34,377 nt of DNA. It comes from a virus. This document shows positions 1 through 34,377 of this stretch, in pieces. Under the pieces are notes generated by a model. The model saw nothing but the letters and a program-made list of their open reading frames with translations, was not told the DNA's origin and searched no databases. The stretch lies in the IMG/VR virus record IMGVR_UViG_3300024344_000063, positions 1 to 34,377 of that record. One strand, 5' to 3'. A program made the position numbers and the translations under genes. Each line of letters opens with the position of its first letter. Within the stretch, counting starts at the first letter, position 1.

Positions 1-88
1 TTCTTGCAAGTTCTTTCCATCCCCCTACAGAACCTCCTCCTGAAGAAGGTTTTCCCATTAATCCTGTATTAAATAATGAAGGAATCAA
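1..88 (-). CDS. 5' end of the duplicated-domain tail protein (partial at window edge)
   Basis: The coding strand from 88 down to 1 reads a TTG start and the first 29 codons of the protein found complete at 32267-33328, with identical nucleotides. An AGGAG Shine-Dalgarno sequence lies about 9 nt upstream of the TTG. The gene runs off the left edge only because the window starts inside it. In a closed genome it is the same gene as the one at the right end. Confidence 0.7.
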   Translation of the reverse strand, partial: MIPSLFNTGLMGKPSSGGGSVGGWKELAR

Positions 89-100
89 TTAAAGGAACTC

Positions 101-865
101 CTAAGAAGAAGTTCCATCATCTAAAGTAAGTTCCATCAACAATCCGACTATTTCTACATCTACTCCAAGATCATCAGATACTACATCTCTTGCTAATTCA
201 AAATAATGTAAATCAAAATCTGTTGGAGTTCCTTGAATAGTTAGTGCTGAACTCCAAGATGTTAAATGAAGATCATCATCAGCAATCCAAGTATCAGTAA
301 TATTCTGAGTTCCTCCAAGTGCCGTTTGTAATGAATCATTATCTGAGAAAGCTCTTGCTGATAAATCAAAATCTATTGTTTGAGAAGCAGAACCACCTGT
401 ACAAGTCCATACTAATCTATATCTTACAGTTCCATTATCATAATTTGGAGGAAATAACATTGGAGGAAGTTGAGCATATTCCTGTGTTGTTGTATCAAAA
501 TTTTGTGTTGATAATTCAATATTAGATGTAGTAATAGTTCTATCAGTTAAAGCAGAACCATTTGTTGCTCTTGGTTTGAAAGATTGTGCAGGAAACCAAA
601 GAGTTTGAGTTCCTATAACAGTTGATAATGTAATATTTTTATCAGGAACTGTTAAAATTCTAGTATTTCCTGTAGTAATAGATCCTGCATCTATTCTTAC
701 TTTCTTTGTAGTATCAGTAGGATCAGTTAAGAAAAAATCATCATCAAAAATATTAGCAATTTCAGAACCTCCTCCGTTTAGAAAATCAGAAATCTTTTGA
801 GTTGCATTACCTCCAAATGTGGAAGCTGTACTAGAGGAAGGAGTAGAAATAGTATCAAAAACCAT
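101..865 (-). CDS. Tail fibre/baseplate-like structural protein, allele A
   Basis: This 254-residue protein is probably part of the distal tail. Residues about 47-80 carry a segment (DPTDTTKKVRIDAGSITTGN followed by a PDKN block) that recurs in many phage tail-fibre and baseplate proteins as 'TDPTKKxxFDxSxITTGTTRTLTxPD'. The rest looks beta-rich. The first 49 and last 8 residues are identical to the copy at 33341-34105, but the centre differs at dozens of positions with no length change, as expected for an exposed binding surface under diversifying selection. A promoter-like element sits 35 nt upstream of the ATG. It follows the LamG-like adhesin gene in transcription order. The exact role is inferred. 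Confidence 0.75.
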   Translation of the reverse strand: MVFDTISTPSSSTASTFGGNATQKISDFLNGGGSEIANIFDDDFFLTDPTDTTKKVRIDAGSITTGNTRILTVPDKNITLSTVIGTQTLWFPAQSFKPRATNGSALTDRTITTSNIELSTQNFDTTTQEYAQLPPMLFPPNYDNGTVRYRLVWTCTGGSASQTIDFDLSARAFSDNDSLQTALGGTQNITDTWIADDDLHLTSWSSALTIQGTPTDFDLHYFELARDVVSDDLGVDVEIVGLLMELTLDDGTSS

Positions 866-892
866 AAAACAATTTGAAAATTAGAAATAAAG

Positions 893-900
893 GGAAGTAA
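893..900 (-). promoter_or_regulatory. WTACTTCY promoter-like element
   Basis: The coding strand reads TTACTTCC, with its first base 35 nt upstream of the ATG at 865, followed by a T/A-rich CTTTATTT stretch. It belongs to a recurring element found at similar distance before many genes here. Confidence 0.5.
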
Positions 901-902
901 AC

Positions 903-1955
903 CTAGTACAAGTCTAGAGTATCATTTCCTGATTCCCCTTCAAAGGAAATAGCTGATAACTGATTATTACTATGAAAAATATTATTACTATGAAAATCAG
1001 TAATTTGAGAGCTTGTTTGTTCTCCTGCTTCCCAAAAGAACCAAGCTACAGAGCCATATAATTTCTGATCAAATGTTCCTCCGTTATCTCTAGCTCCAAA
1101 GTAAGCAGCTCTTGTATTAGTAATTGAAGCAGTAATTGATGTATTAGATGTAGAACCAATACTACTTCCATCAACAAATATCTCTATAGTTTCATTTGCT
1201 GTAGTAATGTAATCAGTATCATAATCTCCTGAATCATAATCAGCTCCAATATCTCCTATGTTTATCGTTATACAATGCCAACTTCCATCATCCAAAGCAG
1301 AGAAATCATGAGAAGCAGTTACAACATTAGATCCATCAGCTATTCTACAGTTTACAGTAGCAGCTACTACTGATGAAGAATAATCAGAATCATAAGCTCC
1401 TGTTCCTGATTGATAATCTGCAGTTAATCCTGATTCTATCCAGATATGAACTCCTGCGTTTGTTGATGTTGATTCATCTTTCTTACAAAATAGAGTTCTG
1501 ATTCCTGAATTAGTTTCAGTAAACTTATACCAAAATGAAAAACTTTGTGATAATCCTAAAGCTAAACCTGAATCATTTGGAATGGTTACATATTGAGATC
1601 CTGTAAATCTACCTATAGCTCCTAACTTTGTTCCATCTCTTACATCATATCCTATAGTTCCATTCTCTACATGAGTTACAGGATAAGCAGAATGAGAAGA
1701 TACTGCTGATTTGATTATCAGATTTCCATTTCTTAAATATCCACTTTCAGAAATATCAATATCGGGATCTCCTGTAGTCCATGTATCAGTTAGAATAAGT
1801 TTCTCTCTTACTTTTGTAATTCTAGCTTTTCTATCAACTCCTTTCTGTTCAGGAACTTCTTCTAAAAATGCATGTTTGATTGCATTGACTTCTGATTGTG
1901 TAGTAGTAGATGATTTTCTTAAAAGGTTTGCAATAGATCCTAAAGTATCAGCCAT
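903..1955 (-). CDS. LamG/concanavalin-like tail adhesin
   Basis: This 350-residue protein has, from about residue 115, the pattern of a laminin-G/concanavalin-like jelly roll: FTGSQYVTIPNDSG, SFSFWYKF, a DGSWHCITINIG strand, IEIFVDGSSIGS, and a YFGARDNGG ending. In phages such domains bind surface glycans, so a host-recognition fibre is likely. The N-terminal 110 residues are helical and charged at first (EVNAIKHAFLEEV) and probably attach the protein to the tail. It starts 1 nt beyond the stop of the preceding tail gene, so the two are co-transcribed. A nearly identical partial copy occurs at the right window edge. The glycan target is unknown. Confidence 0.75.
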   Translation of the reverse strand: MADTLGSIANLLRKSSTTTQSEVNAIKHAFLEEVPEQKGVDRKARITKVREKLILTDTWTTGDPDIDISESGYLRNGNLIIKSAVSSHSAYPVTHVENGTIGYDVRDGTKLGAIGRFTGSQYVTIPNDSGLALGLSQSFSFWYKFTETNSGIRTLFCKKDESTSTNAGVHIWIESGLTADYQSGTGAYDSDYSSSVVAATVNCRIADGSNVVTASHDFSALDDGSWHCITINIGDIGADYDSGDYDTDYITTANETIEIFVDGSSIGSTSNTSITASITNTRAAYFGARDNGGTFDQKLYGSVAWFFWEAGEQTSSQITDFHSNNIFHSNNQLSAISFEGESGNDTLDLY

Positions 1956-1956
1956 T

Positions 1957-3621
1957 TTAAATCGTAACCTCTTGTAAACTAATTGTAAATTTGTTTATTC
2001 CAATATTGGAAGTATCTATTACATCCATTGTAAAATCTAATCCAATGATCAAGGCTTTTCTATCAAACTTGTTTTTTATTCTAACTCTACAATACTTTCC
2101 TAAATCTATTCTAACATCAGGAGGAAAAATATTAATTGGTTGATATTCTCTTTTCTTTACACATACAATATCACTAATAGAATCCAAAGCTTCTACAACA
2201 TGATCAAATTCTGAAGCTTGAGGAAACACTAAAGTTTTTTCTCTAGTTTTAAATTTTCTTTTGGCTCTTACATCTTCATAAATAACAGTAATAGGATTAG
2301 ATGAATAACATCTGAAAGCAAAATCTCCTGTTTGTGAAGTCCATGTTAAGCCATCTGATGAATCAAAATAAGTTCCTGTAGCTGTTTGATATGACATAGC
2401 AAAAGAATCAGTAGCAGTTCCATACAGTTTAACCATTAAAAATATCTGAGTATTTGGAGTTACAGGAGTAGTTCCAAATGATATCTCTGTCCATTGTAGA
2501 GTTCCATCCAATCCTCTAAGAGTTTCTTGAGATAGTTCTGCTTCTTTGAGAATAGTATCTTCATCAGGATCTGTTCCGTTATCAGTTACTAGGAAAAATT
2601 TAGCACTCCCTGCTGAAGGGTTTCCTGTTTTACCCATCTTAATAGATACTTTAGAAACATTATCTTTTGTAGGAGTAAATGGAATAGCATACCATTTTAC
2701 ATCAGAATTTAATGTAGCATCTTCAGAAGTTTGTTCTATATCCTTTTGAATTACGTTTGAGTTTAATCCCTCTAATATTGAGTAACCTGAATCTAATGTT
2801 GTATTTCTCCATCCTATAGGCTCACGCCCAATTAATCCTACTTTAGTTACATCCCATCCTGTAACTTTAGAATGTTCATCATCATTAGTTAGCATAATTC
2901 CAGAAGATATAGTATCTCCTAATCTAAAGAAAAAATCCTTATCAGCATCTACTCCATAAACAGCTCCTGCAGAAGCAGCTAAACTAGCAATAGCAGCAGC
3001 CCATGTTTGATTATTTTGCTGAAAGTCAATTAATTGATTATTGATATTTGTAGTATCTACTCCGTTGGTAGTAATTCCTGATTCTCCTACAAGTTCAGAA
3101 TCTACTAAATGATCAGTTTCTGTAATTATTTCCTTTGCAATCTGTGAAGGATAAACATCAGTATCTGAAGCATCTGCTGTTTCTCCATCTGATTCTTTTT
3201 TCTGGAATCGTTTGATGTTTGTATTTCTATCATTAAAGATAATTCCGTAACCTCCTGCATTGATACGAATCTGTGTAAAGTTTGTATCTACTTCCCAAAC
3301 TTCAGTATCTTTTACTTTACCATAAAATAAATTATAGAGTCCTCCAACTGTTTTTCCAACTTGTAATTTGATTTCCCATTCTTCCTGAATTAGACAATTT
3401 CCATCTGAATCTACCAAATCAGAATTTGTATCATCTATTACAAATGAGAGAGATCCTGTATCATCATTGATTCCTAAATGCCCTGCTACTGTTCTTAAAT
3501 GAAAATCTCTTACAGCATTAGAATCCAATAAAGTAGATGTAAATGAGTAACGTTCTACTCCGTCTAAATCATAGATAATTAATTTAGGCATTAAAGGAGT
3601 AGGATCAAAATTTGAAAGCAT
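1957..3621 (-). CDS. Tail tip/baseplate hub-like protein
   Basis: This 554-residue protein is encoded directly after the tape measure, with a 1-nt stop/start overlap, the place where siphoviruses encode distal tail and hub proteins. The N-terminal half (about 1-260) has features of hub proteins: LIIYDLDGVERYSF, DTEVWEVDTNFTQIRINAGG, and the C-terminal block RVRIKNKFDRKALIIGLDFT. Between them, about residues 300-440, lies a beta-rich insert (VSIKMGKTGNP, TEISFGTTPVTPNTQIFLMV) resembling a carbohydrate-binding jelly roll. The most likely role is the tail tip that joins tube to fibres. The assignment rests on synteny and general pattern, not a recognised family signature. Confidence 0.65.
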   Translation of the reverse strand: MLSNFDPTPLMPKLIIYDLDGVERYSFTSTLLDSNAVRDFHLRTVAGHLGINDDTGSLSFVIDDTNSDLVDSDGNCLIQEEWEIKLQVGKTVGGLYNLFYGKVKDTEVWEVDTNFTQIRINAGGYGIIFNDRNTNIKRFQKKESDGETADASDTDVYPSQIAKEIITETDHLVDSELVGESGITTNGVDTTNINNQLIDFQQNNQTWAAAIASLAASAGAVYGVDADKDFFFRLGDTISSGIMLTNDDEHSKVTGWDVTKVGLIGREPIGWRNTTLDSGYSILEGLNSNVIQKDIEQTSEDATLNSDVKWYAIPFTPTKDNVSKVSIKMGKTGNPSAGSAKFFLVTDNGTDPDEDTILKEAELSQETLRGLDGTLQWTEISFGTTPVTPNTQIFLMVKLYGTATDSFAMSYQTATGTYFDSSDGLTWTSQTGDFAFRCYSSNPITVIYEDVRAKRKFKTREKTLVFPQASEFDHVVEALDSISDIVCVKKREYQPINIFPPDVRIDLGKYCRVRIKNKFDRKALIIGLDFTMDVIDTSNIGINKFTISLQEVTI

Positions 3622-22287: not shown

Positions 22288-22579
22288 TTTTATTCTCCTC
22301 TATTGCAAAGTGTAAAGCAAATAAATTACTACAAACTGCATGAGCTAGATGAAATAATTTAGATTCAGGATCAAATGTTTCTCCATCAACTTCACTAAAT
22401 TCATGCCTTAATGCTGCCTTGTTGTATCTGTTACGAGCATCTGAAACTTTTTTCCAATTATCTCTTTCAGGGTATTTCTTTGCTCCATACATTAGAACTT
22501 TAACTACTTCATCTAATGCTGATTTTGGAAGAAGTGTATAGTCTAGTTTATCATCATCATATTTTACGCCTTCTACCAA
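22277..22579 (-). CDS. DUF5664-type dATP/dGTP diphosphohydrolase-like protein
   Basis: This 100-residue protein resembles DUF5664: KYDDDKLDYTLLPKSALDEV, VLMYGAKKYPERDNWKKV, YNKAALRHEFSEVDGETFDP and SKLFHLAHAVCSNLFALHF. The conserved Lys/Asp start, the YGAKKY and NW pair, the RHxxxxxxGE and DPES-LxHLAHA segments agree with phage family members predicted to hydrolyse (d)NTPs. It may adjust the nucleotide pool. No PurZ is present, so a diaminopurine genome is not indicated. The TTG start overlaps the methyltransferase stop. Confidence 0.7.
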   Translation of the reverse strand: MVEGVKYDDDKLDYTLLPKSALDEVVKVLMYGAKKYPERDNWKKVSDARNRYNKAALRHEFSEVDGETFDPESKLFHLAHAVCSNLFALHFAIEENKIEK

Positions 22580-23142
22580 TCTATAACTAACTCCTCTTTG
22601 ATTTCATTACCCCAAGCATCCCATCCTTTAGCTCTTTCTCTAGCAAAGAGTTCTATTCTAGGTAAATCTCCCATGAGTGAAACTATTCTATCTCTAATTT
22701 CATCAGGTTTCTTTGAATGTCTTTCAGGAATAGATTCAATAATTTGTCTAACTCCTGCATCTATTCGTTTAGGTTTTCCTTTAGTAGCCAATAAACAAAT
22801 CTCAGCATTAGCTCTAGTCCATCTTCCCATTCCAAGAAATGAATTACCATTTGAATAATTCTTAACCCATGTAAAAGCTACAGTTTTGAAAGTAAAACCC
22901 CATGCCTTAACACAATCTAATCCTTCTTGTAATTTTGGAAATGTAACCCACATAAACAAAACACAATTATCTGCAGCTAAATCTTCTACATTTAATCGTG
23001 TTACATCATAATTTGATAATACTTGATACTTACATCCTGCTCCTCTATTTCCTGCAAGAGCTTTATCTTCATAACTCCATGCAGGATCAGCAAGGATAAT
23101 TTCATATTTTTTTCCGTTATCACACTTTAGCATAACATCCAC
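22573..23142 (-). CDS. MT-A70 family DNA N6-adenine methyltransferase
   Basis: This 189-residue enzyme would methylate adenine in DNA with S-adenosylmethionine. The catalytic motif IV is DPAW in IILADPAWSYEDKAL (Asp18-Trp21), and FMWVTFPKLQEGLDCVKAWG, NAEICLLATKGKPK, SIPERHSKKPDEIRDRI and ELFARERAKGWDAWGNE are typical of MT-A70 enzymes in phages. No restriction gene accompanies it, so it is probably an orphan used to evade host restriction or mark viral DNA. The GTG start (or ATG at 23133) lies within the end of a small cysteine-rich frame, with a GGAG upstream. Confidence 0.85.
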   Translation of the reverse strand: MDVMLKCDNGKKYEIILADPAWSYEDKALAGNRGAGCKYQVLSNYDVTRLNVEDLAADNCVLFMWVTFPKLQEGLDCVKAWGFTFKTVAFTWVKNYSNGNSFLGMGRWTRANAEICLLATKGKPKRIDAGVRQIIESIPERHSKKPDEIRDRIVSLMGDLPRIELFARERAKGWDAWGNEIKEELVIDW

Positions 23143-23988: not shown

Positions 23989-24092
23989 ATAGCTAACGTA
24001 GCTAACGTTTTTGAACTACTAACTAACACAAATGAAGAATATAGAGTAAAAGTTCTAAGAAGTATTTGAAAAACGTTAGCTACGTTAGCTAT
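23989..24092. repeat. Perfect 24-bp inverted repeat with tandem AGCTAACGT 9-mers
   Basis: Left arm 23989-24012 and right arm 24069-24092 are perfect inverted copies. Each contains AGCTAACGT (or its complement) twice in tandem. The arms extend inwards for about eight more bases with two mismatches, leaving a loop near 40 nt. The segment is non-coding, between the 44-residue gene and the RecB-like gene. Candidates are a replication origin with initiator-binding iterons, a regulator-binding operator for the nuclease-methyltransferase operon, or a hairpin terminator. A WTACTTCY element (24058-24065) lies in it, but with no start at the usual distance. Confidence 0.7.
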
Positions 24093-26274: not shown

Positions 26275-26438
26275 TTATTATTATCCTCCTCCTTTTTGTT
26301 AAGGAAGTATCGCAAGTCTTTCTCATCTTCTTCAATTTCAATTTCTAAATCAAGAGCTTGTTTGTAGAGATACCATTTCTGATATTTTTTAACTACGAGT
26401 TTCCTTTGACGTTCTTCAATGATTGAATCATAAGTCAT
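26271..26438 (-). CDS. Small charged helical protein
   Basis: This 55-codon ATG frame, MTYDSIIEERQRKLVVKKYQ, then YLYKQALDLEIEIEEDEKDL, ends KKEEDNN. It fits exactly between its neighbours with overlaps (ATGACT at one end, TTGA at the other), so it is probably a translated small protein of the early operon. Its 3' end carries the Shine-Dalgarno of the primase-helicase gene. No function is recognised. Confidence 0.55.
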   Translation of the reverse strand: MTYDSIIEERQRKLVVKKYQKWYLYKQALDLEIEIEEDEKDLRYFLNKKEEDNNN

Positions 26439-26611
26439 TTTAATAATTTCCTTAAATCTTTAATGACTTTAGCTTCTTTCTCAAGTCTAACTACATGATC
26501 ATTCCAATCAACAGAATATAGTAATTCATCATTCTGATAAACAGATACAGAATAACCTATTACCTTTACAGTAACATCATGTCCTACCCATGACATAATT
26601 TCTTCACTCAT
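26435..26611 (-). CDS. Small hypothetical protein
   Basis: This 58-codon ATG frame reads MSEEIMSWVGHDVTVKVIGY, then SVYQNDELLYSVDW and a basic helix (LEKEAKVIKDLRKLLK). It overlaps the stop upstream (ATGA) and the start downstream. It looks like a strand-rich domain followed by a helix. Unknown function, early operon. Confidence 0.55.
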   Translation of the reverse strand: MSEEIMSWVGHDVTVKVIGYSVSVYQNDELLYSVDWNDHVVRLEKEAKVIKDLRKLLK

Positions 26612-26949: not shown

Positions 26950-27497
26950 GAGTAAAAACCCTCTACTCGTGTTCTTTTGAAATTACAATTAAAACAAAGA
27001 ACTTCTAAATCGTCTACTTTTCTTTCTCCTGAAATAATATCTTTATAGATATTATCATGCACAGTATATTTTTTCCTATCAATCGAGCCATTTTTTTTAC
27101 TATGTTCTAAAGTAAGAATATCTAAATCTGTTATTTTACAATGAATTTTTTCTTTTTGCCAACCATTACAGAATACATAAGTGAATCCTTTACTTTCCTG
27201 AATAATCATATATGCTTGTTTTTTATTTTCTACTCGTGATTGTCTACGTTTTCGATTAGATCTTTGTCGCTGTTTGCTTAATAAATTAGGATTTTTTTTA
27301 CACCATTTTGCAAGGGTTTTTCGTGTTTTACATCTATTATTTTTTCCCCATTCTTTAGAACAATCATTAAGTTTTATTCTGTTTTTTTTATAATAGTTTT
27401 TAATATAATATTTATTGTTATAACGGAATACTCTATTAATAATAAATTGATATTTTTTAGTATGAGAAGGATAGTAAGGCAACATCAACTGACTCAT
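26946..27497 (-). CDS. HNH endonuclease-like protein
   Basis: This 183-residue protein is very basic in its first 100 residues (Asn/Lys/Arg/Tyr-rich, e.g. CKTRKTLAKWCKKNPNLLSK), followed by an HNH module: ITDLDILTLEHSKKNGSIDRK, YKDIISGERKVDDLEVLCFN and CNFKRT. The LEH, NG and LCFNCN pieces match HNH families with 'DHxxGxGxxHR...LLCANCN'. The first Cys pair is replaced, so zinc binding may differ. It could be a homing nuclease or a nicking enzyme. A free-standing insertion within the operon is plausible, given its stronger A+T bias. Confidence 0.6.
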   Translation of the reverse strand: MSQLMLPYYPSHTKKYQFIINRVFRYNNKYYIKNYYKKNRIKLNDCSKEWGKNNRCKTRKTLAKWCKKNPNLLSKQRQRSNRKRRQSRVENKKQAYMIIQESKGFTYVFCNGWQKEKIHCKITDLDILTLEHSKKNGSIDRKKYTVHDNIYKDIISGERKVDDLEVLCFNCNFKRTRVEGFYS

Positions 27498-29505: not shown

Positions 29506-30567
29506 TTAACTTATTTTTTTCATCTTACCTAGAATAGCTTCTCTAAGTAATGCAATAGTTTGAGATTGTTCTAACTGTGTTTCTTTCATTTCAGCAATCT
29601 CTGTGTTTGCAATTCTTAATTTTTTAATTTCTTCATCCTTTCTAACTAGATCAAATATCAGTAAATCTTTTTCAAAGTCCATATAGTTTTCTAGTTTTTC
29701 TTCATCTGACATTCTGTCATATTGGAGAAGATATCCTTTCTCTCCTGCTAATAGTTTAGCAAGATTCTCATCATGCCTTGAAATCTTTGTAATGAAATAA
29801 GCTCTGAATGAGTGAGTAGTGATTTGATTATTTCCAGAATCCTCATACTTTTGATTCAATCCTAGAGGTTCTAAATGCCTTGCTAGAGTTTGACCTTTGC
29901 ATGATTCAACTGATTTTACATTAGTATTCTTTGTAAATATTAAATCATCATCATCTAGTTTTTTGAGTATTGGTTTTAAAACAGATGCAGTTTCTTTACT
30001 GAAAAATGTAGTTCTTGCTTTGTGGAATTTTGCTATAGTAGTAGGAATTTTTACCATGATTCTCTCAGTATCAAGTATCAAGTGTTTCTTTCTAAGTTGA
30101 ACAATTTCCCCGATTCTCATACCTGATGAAATCTGACACATGAAGAGAACCTTATCAGGATATGTAAGAGAATTTAGAATAGTTTGAATCTCATCAATTT
30201 TTAAACCTCTCAAATCTTTCTCTGCTTTTCTAGGCATTTCAATATGTTCCTGAACATCATCCTTTGTTAAGGGCGATCCTCTGTAGAATAGATATTTTCT
30301 AACAGAAGCAGCAGCTCCTATTACTGAATTAGGATGATGCCCTTTCTTCTTTGTTCTATGATTGACAGCTTCTAATGAATACCAATTAATGAATAATTGG
30401 AAAATATCTATAGAATCCTCCTTTGTTTTAGGAATATAGCCTGATTTACCTACCCTTTTTTCTGCAAACTCTTCCCATAATTTGATCCTTTTACGATAAG
30501 CTTCTACAGTTTTGAAATCCTTAATGGCAATTTTATTAAAAAAATCCTCTTTTGTTTTCTTCAACAT
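29506..30567 (-). CDS. int: Tyrosine recombinase/integrase, thaumarchaeal type
   Basis: This 353-residue protein should integrate and excise the viral genome. Catalytic residues: Arg in QISSGMRIGEIVQLRKKHL (near 149), HSFR in TTHSFRAYFITKIS (near 250) and the nucleophile Tyr in GYLLQYDRMSDEEK (near 282). The N-terminal 100 residues form a core-binding domain (EAYRKRIKLWEEFAEK), and the C-terminus ends in a coiled coil. The SGMRIGEIVQLRKK and GYLLQYDRMSDEEKLENYMD blocks look like thaumarchaeal integrases I recall, the chief reason for assigning the host. The promoter-like element is 34 nt upstream of the ATG. Confidence 0.85.
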   Translation of the reverse strand: MLKKTKEDFFNKIAIKDFKTVEAYRKRIKLWEEFAEKRVGKSGYIPKTKEDSIDIFQLFINWYSLEAVNHRTKKKGHHPNSVIGAAASVRKYLFYRGSPLTKDDVQEHIEMPRKAEKDLRGLKIDEIQTILNSLTYPDKVLFMCQISSGMRIGEIVQLRKKHLILDTERIMVKIPTTIAKFHKARTTFFSKETASVLKPILKKLDDDDLIFTKNTNVKSVESCKGQTLARHLEPLGLNQKYEDSGNNQITTHSFRAYFITKISRHDENLAKLLAGEKGYLLQYDRMSDEEKLENYMDFEKDLLIFDLVRKDEEIKKLRIANTEIAEMKETQLEQSQTIALLREAILGKMKKIS

Positions 30568-31787: not shown

Positions 31788-32267
31788 TTAATCAGTTCCT
31801 AACATTGAAATATTTGAATCTGTATCATAACTTCCTCCTGCTGAATTATTACAATCTACTCTATCTAATGTATTTGTTGTATCTACCCATTTTGCTACAA
31901 GTTCCATTCTTTCAGGAGCATTTCCAGATCCTGCAGTATTAGGAGAAATATTCCAAAATATTAATAATTTTTCTTCTGAAGAAATTGAACAAACAAAACA
32001 ATTAATGAAACTATCTAATGCTCCTGATTGATCCATTCTTAGATTTGAAAGACTTGTTCCTGTTGAATCTGCTCCTCCCTCCAAACTAAATCTTCTTGCA
32101 TAAACACTTGTAGCATCGTTATTTAATGTCATTTCAACTTGTGATGTTCCAGAAGTAATTTTATGAATAAGAATTTGATTAAATATTTTACCTCCTAAAT
32201 CAGTAATATCCATATCATCTGCTGCACTTCCTAAAGTGACAGGTGTTCCATTCTTACTCCAAGCCAT
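31788..32267 (-). CDS. Single-copy version of the repeated tail beta domain
   Basis: This 159-residue protein has the same pattern as each half of the 353-residue protein upstream: VYARRFSLEGGADSTGTSLS, INCFVCSISSEEKLLIFWNI, SGNAPERMELVAKWVDTTNT and the ending SNISMLGTD. The shared pieces (xxxRxSxxGGADxT, NxSxxEKL, GNxPxRxExVxKWxxTxxxxxxV, final G-x-D) show three copies of one beta-rich domain encoded in a row. In tails such domains usually bind the host surface. It overlaps the upstream stop by one base. Confidence 0.6.
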   Translation of the reverse strand: MAWSKNGTPVTLGSAADDMDITDLGGKIFNQILIHKITSGTSQVEMTLNNDATSVYARRFSLEGGADSTGTSLSNLRMDQSGALDSFINCFVCSISSEEKLLIFWNISPNTAGSGNAPERMELVAKWVDTTNTLDRVDCNNSAGGSYDTDSNISMLGTD

Positions 32268-33328
32268 TAGTCAGAACCCCATACTCTTATTTTACTTCCA
32301 GATAATAATCCTGAACCAAAAGCCCATTTATCCATAACTACTTTAGTAATTTGTGAACTCGTATTTGCCCATTTGAAAACTCTTTCTTCTCTATGTGGTT
32401 CATTTCCTGCTCCTGATGCATCATTCATTGTAGTATTCATGATTCCTAATTTTTCATTTGCAGAATTATTAACTATAAATATATTAACAAATTGTGGTAA
32501 TGTTGCCTGATTTAGATTTCCTTCAATATCTATTCTATTACCACTTGTTAATGTTCCATCTGCTCCTCCGTTATAGGATTGTCTTGTAGCATAATTAGAA
32601 CCTGAATCTGAATTAAATCTCATTACAGAAGATACTGCAGCATCATGTCCTTTAATGAAAGCCTGAATCCATAGATATTTTTTTGCTGTGAATGTTCCTG
32701 AATCTAAATTTCCTGTTGATGAAATATCTACACTTGCTAATTCCTCCCAGAAATTAGTAGTATGTGTATCTGCTGCATCCCAACCTAAAATTATAATTTC
32801 AGAGTTAGTAGAGAATGAACCACTTGAATTTAATGTTGCTTTGAATGTGTCTAATGGATTAGATGTGTTTACCCACTTTCCTACATTCTCAATTCTTTTT
32901 GGAGCGTTTGTTGCTCCTGTTAATCCAAACACTCTCCAAGATTGGAATAGTTTTTCTTTACTGGATATGTTTGAACAATATCCTATATGATATTCTATTG
33001 TTGTACTATATCCACCTATTCCATCTATTCCAGCGTTACTACTTGTAAGTGTAGTATCTGCTGCTCCATCTGTTGATGAACGTCTTGCATTATTTGAACC
33101 TGTATCTTCGCTACCATTTCCAACTCTGAAAGTATTACCACTTCCTGCATTAGCATAAATCGGAGAAAATAGAAACATATAATATCGTTTGTCGTTAAAT
33201 CCTGTAACTTCAATACTACTACCTGCACTTCCTAAAGTAGTTCTTGCAAGTTCTTTCCATCCCCCTACAGAACCTCCTCCTGAAGAAGGTTTTCCCATTA
33301 ATCCTGTATTAAATAATGAAGGAATCAA
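32267..33328 (-). CDS. Two-domain tail fibre protein (duplicated beta domain)
   Basis: This 353-residue protein contains a short N-terminal linker (MIPSLFNTGLMGKPSSGGGS) then two related domains, residues about 22-170 and 175-353. Domain 1 shows ARRSSTDGAADTTLTSS, NISSKEKLFQSWRVFG, TNAPKRIENVGKWVNTSNPL and IIILGWD; domain 2 shows ATRQSYNGGADGTLTSG, NSANEKLGIMN, GNEPHREERVFKWANTSSQI and RVWGSD. These align with the 159-residue protein downstream. A host-binding fibre is likely. The TTG start has AGGAG at 9 nt. Confidence 0.65.
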   Translation of the reverse strand: MIPSLFNTGLMGKPSSGGGSVGGWKELARTTLGSAGSSIEVTGFNDKRYYMFLFSPIYANAGSGNTFRVGNGSEDTGSNNARRSSTDGAADTTLTSSNAGIDGIGGYSTTIEYHIGYCSNISSKEKLFQSWRVFGLTGATNAPKRIENVGKWVNTSNPLDTFKATLNSSGSFSTNSEIIILGWDAADTHTTNFWEELASVDISSTGNLDSGTFTAKKYLWIQAFIKGHDAAVSSVMRFNSDSGSNYATRQSYNGGADGTLTSGNRIDIEGNLNQATLPQFVNIFIVNNSANEKLGIMNTTMNDASGAGNEPHREERVFKWANTSSQITKVVMDKWAFGSGLLSGSKIRVWGSD

Positions 33329-33340
33329 TTAAAGGAACTC

Positions 33341-34105
33341 CTAAGAAGAAGTTCCATCATCTAAAGTTAATTCGATTTGAATACCTATAAGTTCAGCATC
33401 AACTCCTAAATTATCAGCAGTTACATCTCTAGTTAATTCTAAAATTAATAAATCAGAATCAGCAGGAGTTCCCCCTATTGTAATTGCAGAACTCCAATCT
33501 GTAGTATGGTTATCATTATCTGCAATCCAAATATCAGTTACATTTTGAGTTCCTGAAAAAGCAGTTGTTAAAGCATCATCATTGGAATAAGCATAACCTG
33601 ATAAATCAAAATCAATAGTTTGAGCTGATGAACCTCCTGAACATGTCCATACTAATCTAAACTTTATAGTTCCGTTATTCCAATTTCTAGGAAGCATAAT
33701 AGGAGGAAGTTGTGCATATTCCTGAGTAGTTGTATCAAAATTCATAGTAGATTGTTCATAGTTTGAAGTAGCTTGTGTTCTATCAGTTAGAGCAGCTCCA
33801 TTAGTAGCTCTAGGTTTTAGAGCTTGAGCTGGAATCCATATATCCTGAGTGCCAATAACTGAAGATAATGTTAAATTCTTATCTGGAAAAGTAAAAACTC
33901 TAGTAGTCGCTGTAGTAATAGATCCTGCATCAAAACGAACTTTCTTTGTAGCATCAGCAGGATCAGTTAAGAAAAAATCATCATCAAAAATATTAGCAAT
34001 CTCAGAACCTCCTCCGTTTAGAAAATCAGAAATCTTCTGAGTAGCATTACCTCCGAATGTAGAAGCTGTACTAGAGGAAGGAGTAGAAATAGTATCAAAA
34101 ACCAT
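33341..34105 (-). CDS. Tail fibre/baseplate-like structural protein, allele B
   Basis: This 254-residue counterpart of 101-865 has the same length. The N-terminal 49 residues and last 8 are identical, while the middle changes at dozens of positions (e.g. FDAGSITTATTRVFTFPDKN, DIWIPAQALKPRATNGAAL, ALTTAFSGTQNVTDIWIADN). Shared parts include FDTTTQEYAQLPP and RLVWTC. The pattern, conserved ends and variable centre, is what recombination between strains at an adhesin gene would produce. If the genome is circular, A and B are two population variants of one locus. Confidence 0.75.
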   Translation of the reverse strand: MVFDTISTPSSSTASTFGGNATQKISDFLNGGGSEIANIFDDDFFLTDPADATKKVRFDAGSITTATTRVFTFPDKNLTLSSVIGTQDIWIPAQALKPRATNGAALTDRTQATSNYEQSTMNFDTTTQEYAQLPPIMLPRNWNNGTIKFRLVWTCSGGSSAQTIDFDLSGYAYSNDDALTTAFSGTQNVTDIWIADNDNHTTDWSSAITIGGTPADSDLLILELTRDVTADNLGVDAELIGIQIELTLDDGTSS

Positions 34106-34132
34106 AAAACAATTTGAAAATTAGAAATAAAG

Positions 34133-34140
34133 GGAAGTAA
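34133..34140 (-). promoter_or_regulatory. WTACTTCY promoter-like element
   Basis: Identical to the one at 893-900, 35 nt upstream of the ATG at 34105. Confidence 0.45.
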
Positions 34141-34142
34141 AC

Positions 34143-34377
34143 CTAGTACAAGTCTAGAGTATCATTTCCTGATTCCCCTTCAAATGATATAGCTGATAAC
34201 TGATTATTACTATGAAAAATATTGTTACTGTGAAAATCAGTAATTTGAGAACTTGTTTGTTCTCCTGCTTCCCAAAAGAACCAAGCTACAGAGCCATATA
34301 ATTTCTGATCAAATGTTCCTCCGTTATCTCTAGCTCCAAAGTAAGCAGCTCTTGTATTAGTAATTGAAGCAGTAATT
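34143..34377 (-). CDS. C-terminal part of the LamG-like adhesin (partial at window edge)
   Basis: This matches 903-1137 with a handful of substitutions clustered near the stop and in the last helix (FEGESGN region). It is cut by the window end and would continue into the gene at 903-1955 in a closed genome. Encodes the C-terminal strands of the jelly roll. Confidence 0.65.
   Translation of the reverse strand, partial: ITASITNTRAAYFGARDNGGTFDQKLYGSVAWFFWEAGEQTSSQITDFHSNNIFHSNNQLSAISFEGESGNDTLDLY

Follow-up and report, generated by a model that had tools for sequence, protein, structure and literature searches.

The two ends of one viral contig carry different versions of the same tail gene, and the question is whether both versions belong to a single genome or come from different strains. 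The window analysed here is the whole 34,377-nt stretch of DNA. Its ends, positions 1–1137 and 33241–34377, align without gaps, shifted throughout by 33,240 nt, with 170 mismatches. This 1,137-nt overlap is the sole long repeat in the window and is far above chance. No mismatch falls in the 127 nt at 1–127 or the 126 nt at 1012–1137, whereas there are 160 in the 591 nt at 128–718 and 10 in the 293 nt at 719–1011.

Structure and probable assembly origin of the end overlap

Each end copy holds the start of g353, one allele of the distal-tail gene g254 and the end of g350, all on the minus strand. Allele A lies at 101–865 and allele B at 33341–34105; these assignments rest on the open reading frames and the comparison of the alleles, and the distal-tail label also on the position of the gene within the tail cassette. 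Both frames encode 254 residues, of which 65 differ, all of them within residues 50–244, while residues 1–49 are constant. The earlier note's description of ends that overlap by 1,137 bp with differing alleles of a tail gene, altered in its middle without change of length, was thus confirmed. The outer contig ends cut g353 and g350 mid-gene. The left end holds the first 29 residues of g353, the next cassette gene, whose full copy (32267–33328) extends into the identical left arm. At the right end the last 77 residues of g350 are repeated, with the same protein sequence as in the full copy (903–1955).

The left arm of 127 nt (1–127) is identical to 33241–33367, and the right arm of 126 nt (1012–1137) is identical to 34252–34377. 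Between the two arms, the longest identical run is 123 nt. A k-mer model was built of two 33,240-bp circles, one for each allele, and k-mers were counted at several values of k. At k = 127 the alleles make one bubble, and for a contig that reads allele A, backbone and allele B the predicted overlap of the two ends is 1136 nt (node-centred) to 1138 nt (edge-centred), compared with the observed 1137. At k of 123 or less, the same model breaks the bubble into two. The predicted overlap is 1115–1117 nt at k = 119 and 1164–1166 nt at k = 141, neither of which matches. The identical arms therefore agree with the assembler k within one base, as for an end overlap made by an assembler, and the left arm is what a shared k-mer node would give at k = 127. 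One arm is a single base short of the strict edge model at this k, an asymmetry for which we have no explanation. A k of 127 is a common assembler setting, and we know of no biological process that halts at such arm lengths.

In the proposed mechanism, the reads of two or more strains that occurred together would form a bubble at g254 in a de Bruijn graph with k = 127, and the assembler would follow a path from allele A through the common backbone to allele B. Such a path would place both alleles in the contig, one at each end. We are highly confident that the genome maps as a circle of 33,240 bp and holds g254 once, and that the contig is a linear reading of it in which the assembler joined two co-occurring strain alleles; the particular assembler behind the overlap is one that we infer. 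On this view the genome in the window is complete or nearly so, and the map is that of either a physically circular molecule or a linear one with circular permutation and terminal redundancy. When the two flanks were searched for by DNA words, no further record of this virus turned up in the set covered, in which near records may be lacking, and neither allele was seen alone.

A circular map also agrees with headful packaging, and classical phage genetics offers examples of terminal-redundancy heterozygotes. Headful packaging of concatemers from mixed infections could have left a different allele at each end of the virion DNA. A population assembly cannot show single particles, however, and headful ends are expected to be spread round the genome, not placed within one base of k about one gene. 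We consider it very improbable that such heterozygotes account for the overlap.

Gene order, copy number and contig breaks in relatives

If the two contig ends are joined, the cassette order g554-g350-g254-g353-g159-g90-g72-g198 crosses the junction, and in the related locus L008 this order is unbroken, with g350, g254 and g353 contiguous and the g353 homologue directly after g254. A single g254 homologue, with 43–50% identity to allele A, follows the g554 and g350 homologues in L008 (genome G006), L009 (G011) and L003 (G001), and the presence of a g350 homologue in the same place supports its assignment as a tail-cassette protein upstream of g254. Across the whole 37,422-bp G006 record there is one g254 match. 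In L009 a glycine-rich gene takes the position of g353, and the L003 record terminates just past g254. The two ends of G006 itself contain residues 25–104 and 108–185 of one gene, and so G006 also maps as a circle. Within the window, g353 and its neighbour (31788–33328) show a further feature: g353 resembles two copies of the g159 domain, and relatives such as G005 have several in a row.

These relatives bear on the possibility of a true duplication, that is, a linear genome with two diverged adhesin copies in long terminal repeats and two receptor specificities. Both g254 open reading frames are intact and under purifying selection, and in some relatives a different gene carries a further C-terminal domain of weak similarity, as could be expected of a virus that keeps two adhesins. 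Nevertheless, both repeat arms stop within one base of k = 127, relatives carry one copy in the cassette, the truncation of g353 and g350 falls mid-gene, and terminal repeats made by packaging should be identical copies. Overall, nothing favours the two-adhesin genome that the earlier note had offered as its alternative, the k-length arms and the single copy in relatives oppose it, and its probability is slight, if marginally above that of the heterozygotes. The note's main proposal, in which a genome of about 33.24 kb, circular or with terminal redundancy, was joined through two strains, has good support from the k = 127 signature and from the gene order and copy number of the relatives.

Related records with g554 also tend to break near this cassette. 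Nine of 15 end 1.1–3.8 kb downstream of the g554 start, where 3.2 would be expected at random (p = 0.0004); this interval was picked post hoc, and G004 and G016, which are the same virus (99.98%), were both counted. None of the 15 ends that near on the upstream side, and downstream arms are shorter overall than upstream arms (Wilcoxon p = 0.003). The 33.7-kb record G009 opens inside its g350 homologue and runs to the g353/g159 region, with only the intervening part of the cassette missing from the record. Near its tail cassette (L039:1786–3456), G009 has an open reading frame resembling an MCM-type helicase; the window instead has a D5/DUF5906-type primase. Short-read assemblies are known to fragment at microdiverse islands (PMC6487183), and the clustering of breaks near g554 fits such fragmentation. 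The breaks may be an indirect sign of island-type under-recruitment of reads, although the repeated domains of g353-like genes could be an alternative cause.

Nature of the variation in g254

Between alleles A and B, dS is 0.64 and dN 0.17 (Nei-Gojobori), with dS above 1 in windows covering codons 65–136. The first 49 codons have synonymous changes only, and the ten differences at 719–1011 are likewise all synonymous. The two alleles are old orthologues, long kept apart under purifying selection. Since such divergent alleles lie within near-identical flanks, recombination is indicated, not recent point mutation, and the alleles have probably moved between strains in this way. Homologous recombination in the conserved flanks would swap g254 alleles from strain to strain.

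Because the changes are restricted to the 3' portion of a tail gene, programmed variation could also be suspected, whether through a diversity-generating retroelement or through an invertible cassette. The substitutions, however, are of all types (78 A/T, 31 A/G, 20 C/T, 17 A/C, 13 G/T and 6 C/G) and half are at third codon positions. A scan of the 20 larger proteins showed no reverse transcriptase, neither a template repeat nor adenine-directed change of the kind that marks a retroelement target was found in the window, and the search around g254 gave no convincing invertible arms. Of the explanations considered for the overlap, programmed variation is the one we hold least probable.

The locus had been described in the earlier note as hypervariable and receptor-binding, for which the support is partial. 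Its position in the distal-tail cassette is in keeping with this, as is the swap of the C-terminal domain in some relatives: in G004, G005, G016 and G017 the g254 homologue is about 60% identical over the first 78 residues and then has an unrelated C-terminus. In G004 (1575–1976), G005 (26326–26601) and G017 (26981–27253), all of them relatives with a swapped C-terminus, a gene at another place in the genome weakly matches the C-terminal domain of g254. The other results do not bear out hypervariability. Only two alleles were seen, they diverge over a whole domain, the dN/dS along the gene is about 0.26, as under purifying selection, and changed residues are as frequent in predicted strands as elsewhere, with no concentration in predicted loops (p = 0.87). 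Moreover, the 43–49% identity of g254 across relatives is above that of its neighbours g554 (31–36%) and g350 (28–37%), and 'hypervariable' therefore exceeds the evidence. The variation is real biology, mostly ordinary and of a known kind.

Likely role, host and relation to known systems

The g254 gene lies downstream of g554 (1957–3621, minus strand), a homologue of the putative baseplate protein of the Nitrososphaera provirus Pro-Nvie1, with 22% identity to a region annotated as baseplate. Residues 85–251 of g254 are homologous to gp74 of EBPR siphovirus 2 (32.5%) and g26 of Synechococcus phage S-CRM01 (28%), both of which lie near tail or collagen-repeat genes. These two proteins belong to bacterial phages and share the C-terminal domain of g254, but their N-termini are unlike that of g254. 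The presence of the domain in these phage genes implies that it moves independently of the N-terminus. No g254 homologue was found in bacterial and archaeal genomes, and there was no close DNA match among phage records. The full-length structural model was poor (pLDDT 58), and its fold search was set aside. The model of the C-terminal part (pLDDT 76) is a beta-sandwich whose top viral fold matches have TM scores of 0.71–0.75; it has weak matches to lectins, carbohydrate-binding modules and TNF-type ligands, and a general jelly-roll likeness in the PDB. A function in virion attachment would be the likeliest for g254 and is, on these predictions, probable; from the cassette position and the jelly-roll-like model we infer that the protein may serve receptor binding or host recognition.

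The host is likely to be in Nitrososphaeria, and the virus is probably one of ammonia-oxidising archaea. The core genes are nearest to those of Nitrososphaeria viruses and proviruses, as for the Caudoviricetes of this class. In the phage collection, the sole match of the large terminase TerL is Pro-Nvie1 (32% identity over 96%). TerL alone gave no matches in viral contigs, and of the seven TerL loci in genome contigs, six belong to records of Nitrososphaerales or Nitrososphaeraceae (26–37% identity), three of which share one assembly.

Several other features of the window were recorded. An MT-A70-type methyltransferase is encoded at 22573–23142 and a tyrosine integrase at 29506–30567, and these genes raise the possibility of a temperate virus that modifies DNA. 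At 23989–24092, immediately downstream of the primase gene, lies an inverted repeat whose arms of 32 nt are 94% complementary, with a 40-nt loop and tandem GCTAACGTAGCTAACGT units; it folds much better than shuffled sequences (z −9.4) and is a possible replication origin. The window gave no match to tRNA genes or Rfam families.

Our reading of the contig has two consequences. When the two ends of a record differ, the genome can still be complete and the mismatch due to strain variation, a case that exact end-repeat tests overlook. In addition, a strain-variable tail cassette is a candidate for host recognition in probable Nitrososphaeria viruses, which are hardly cultured. A more speculative idea, rather unlikely in our judgement, is that archaeal tailed viruses keep discrete old adhesin alleles by repeatedly swapping the module that lies between the conserved N-terminal part and a conserved 3' flank, with two alleles per genome as the extreme. 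If true, such exchange would let one viral backbone circulate in several receptor types.

Three known systems are comparable. Pro-Nvie1 (FR725450.1) has portal, capsid, tail and baseplate genes homologous to those of the window and in similar order, but it is a provirus, is distant in sequence and has no detected homologue of g254 or g350. For contigs from circular templates, end repeats of the length of the assembler k have been described (CheckV, PMC8116208). The arms of about 127 nt in this contig are alike, but the ordinary case is an exact repeat of length k, whereas here two alleles stand between two k-length arms, and for this reason exact end-repeat tests miss the contig. Finally, marine phages have metaviromic islands at host-recognition genes, shown by read recruitment (Mizuno et al. 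2014, PMC3909814). The g254 locus shares with these islands the variation of a tail gene among co-occurring near-identical viruses, a conserved N-terminus with a variable C-terminus, exchanged in some relatives, and adhesin-like head domains. Unlike the marine islands, it is known through a pair of alleles within a single contig and through the clustered breaks of its relatives, and the virus is probably archaeal. Our verdict is that the locus is metaviromic-island-like, in a probable Nitrososphaeria virus.
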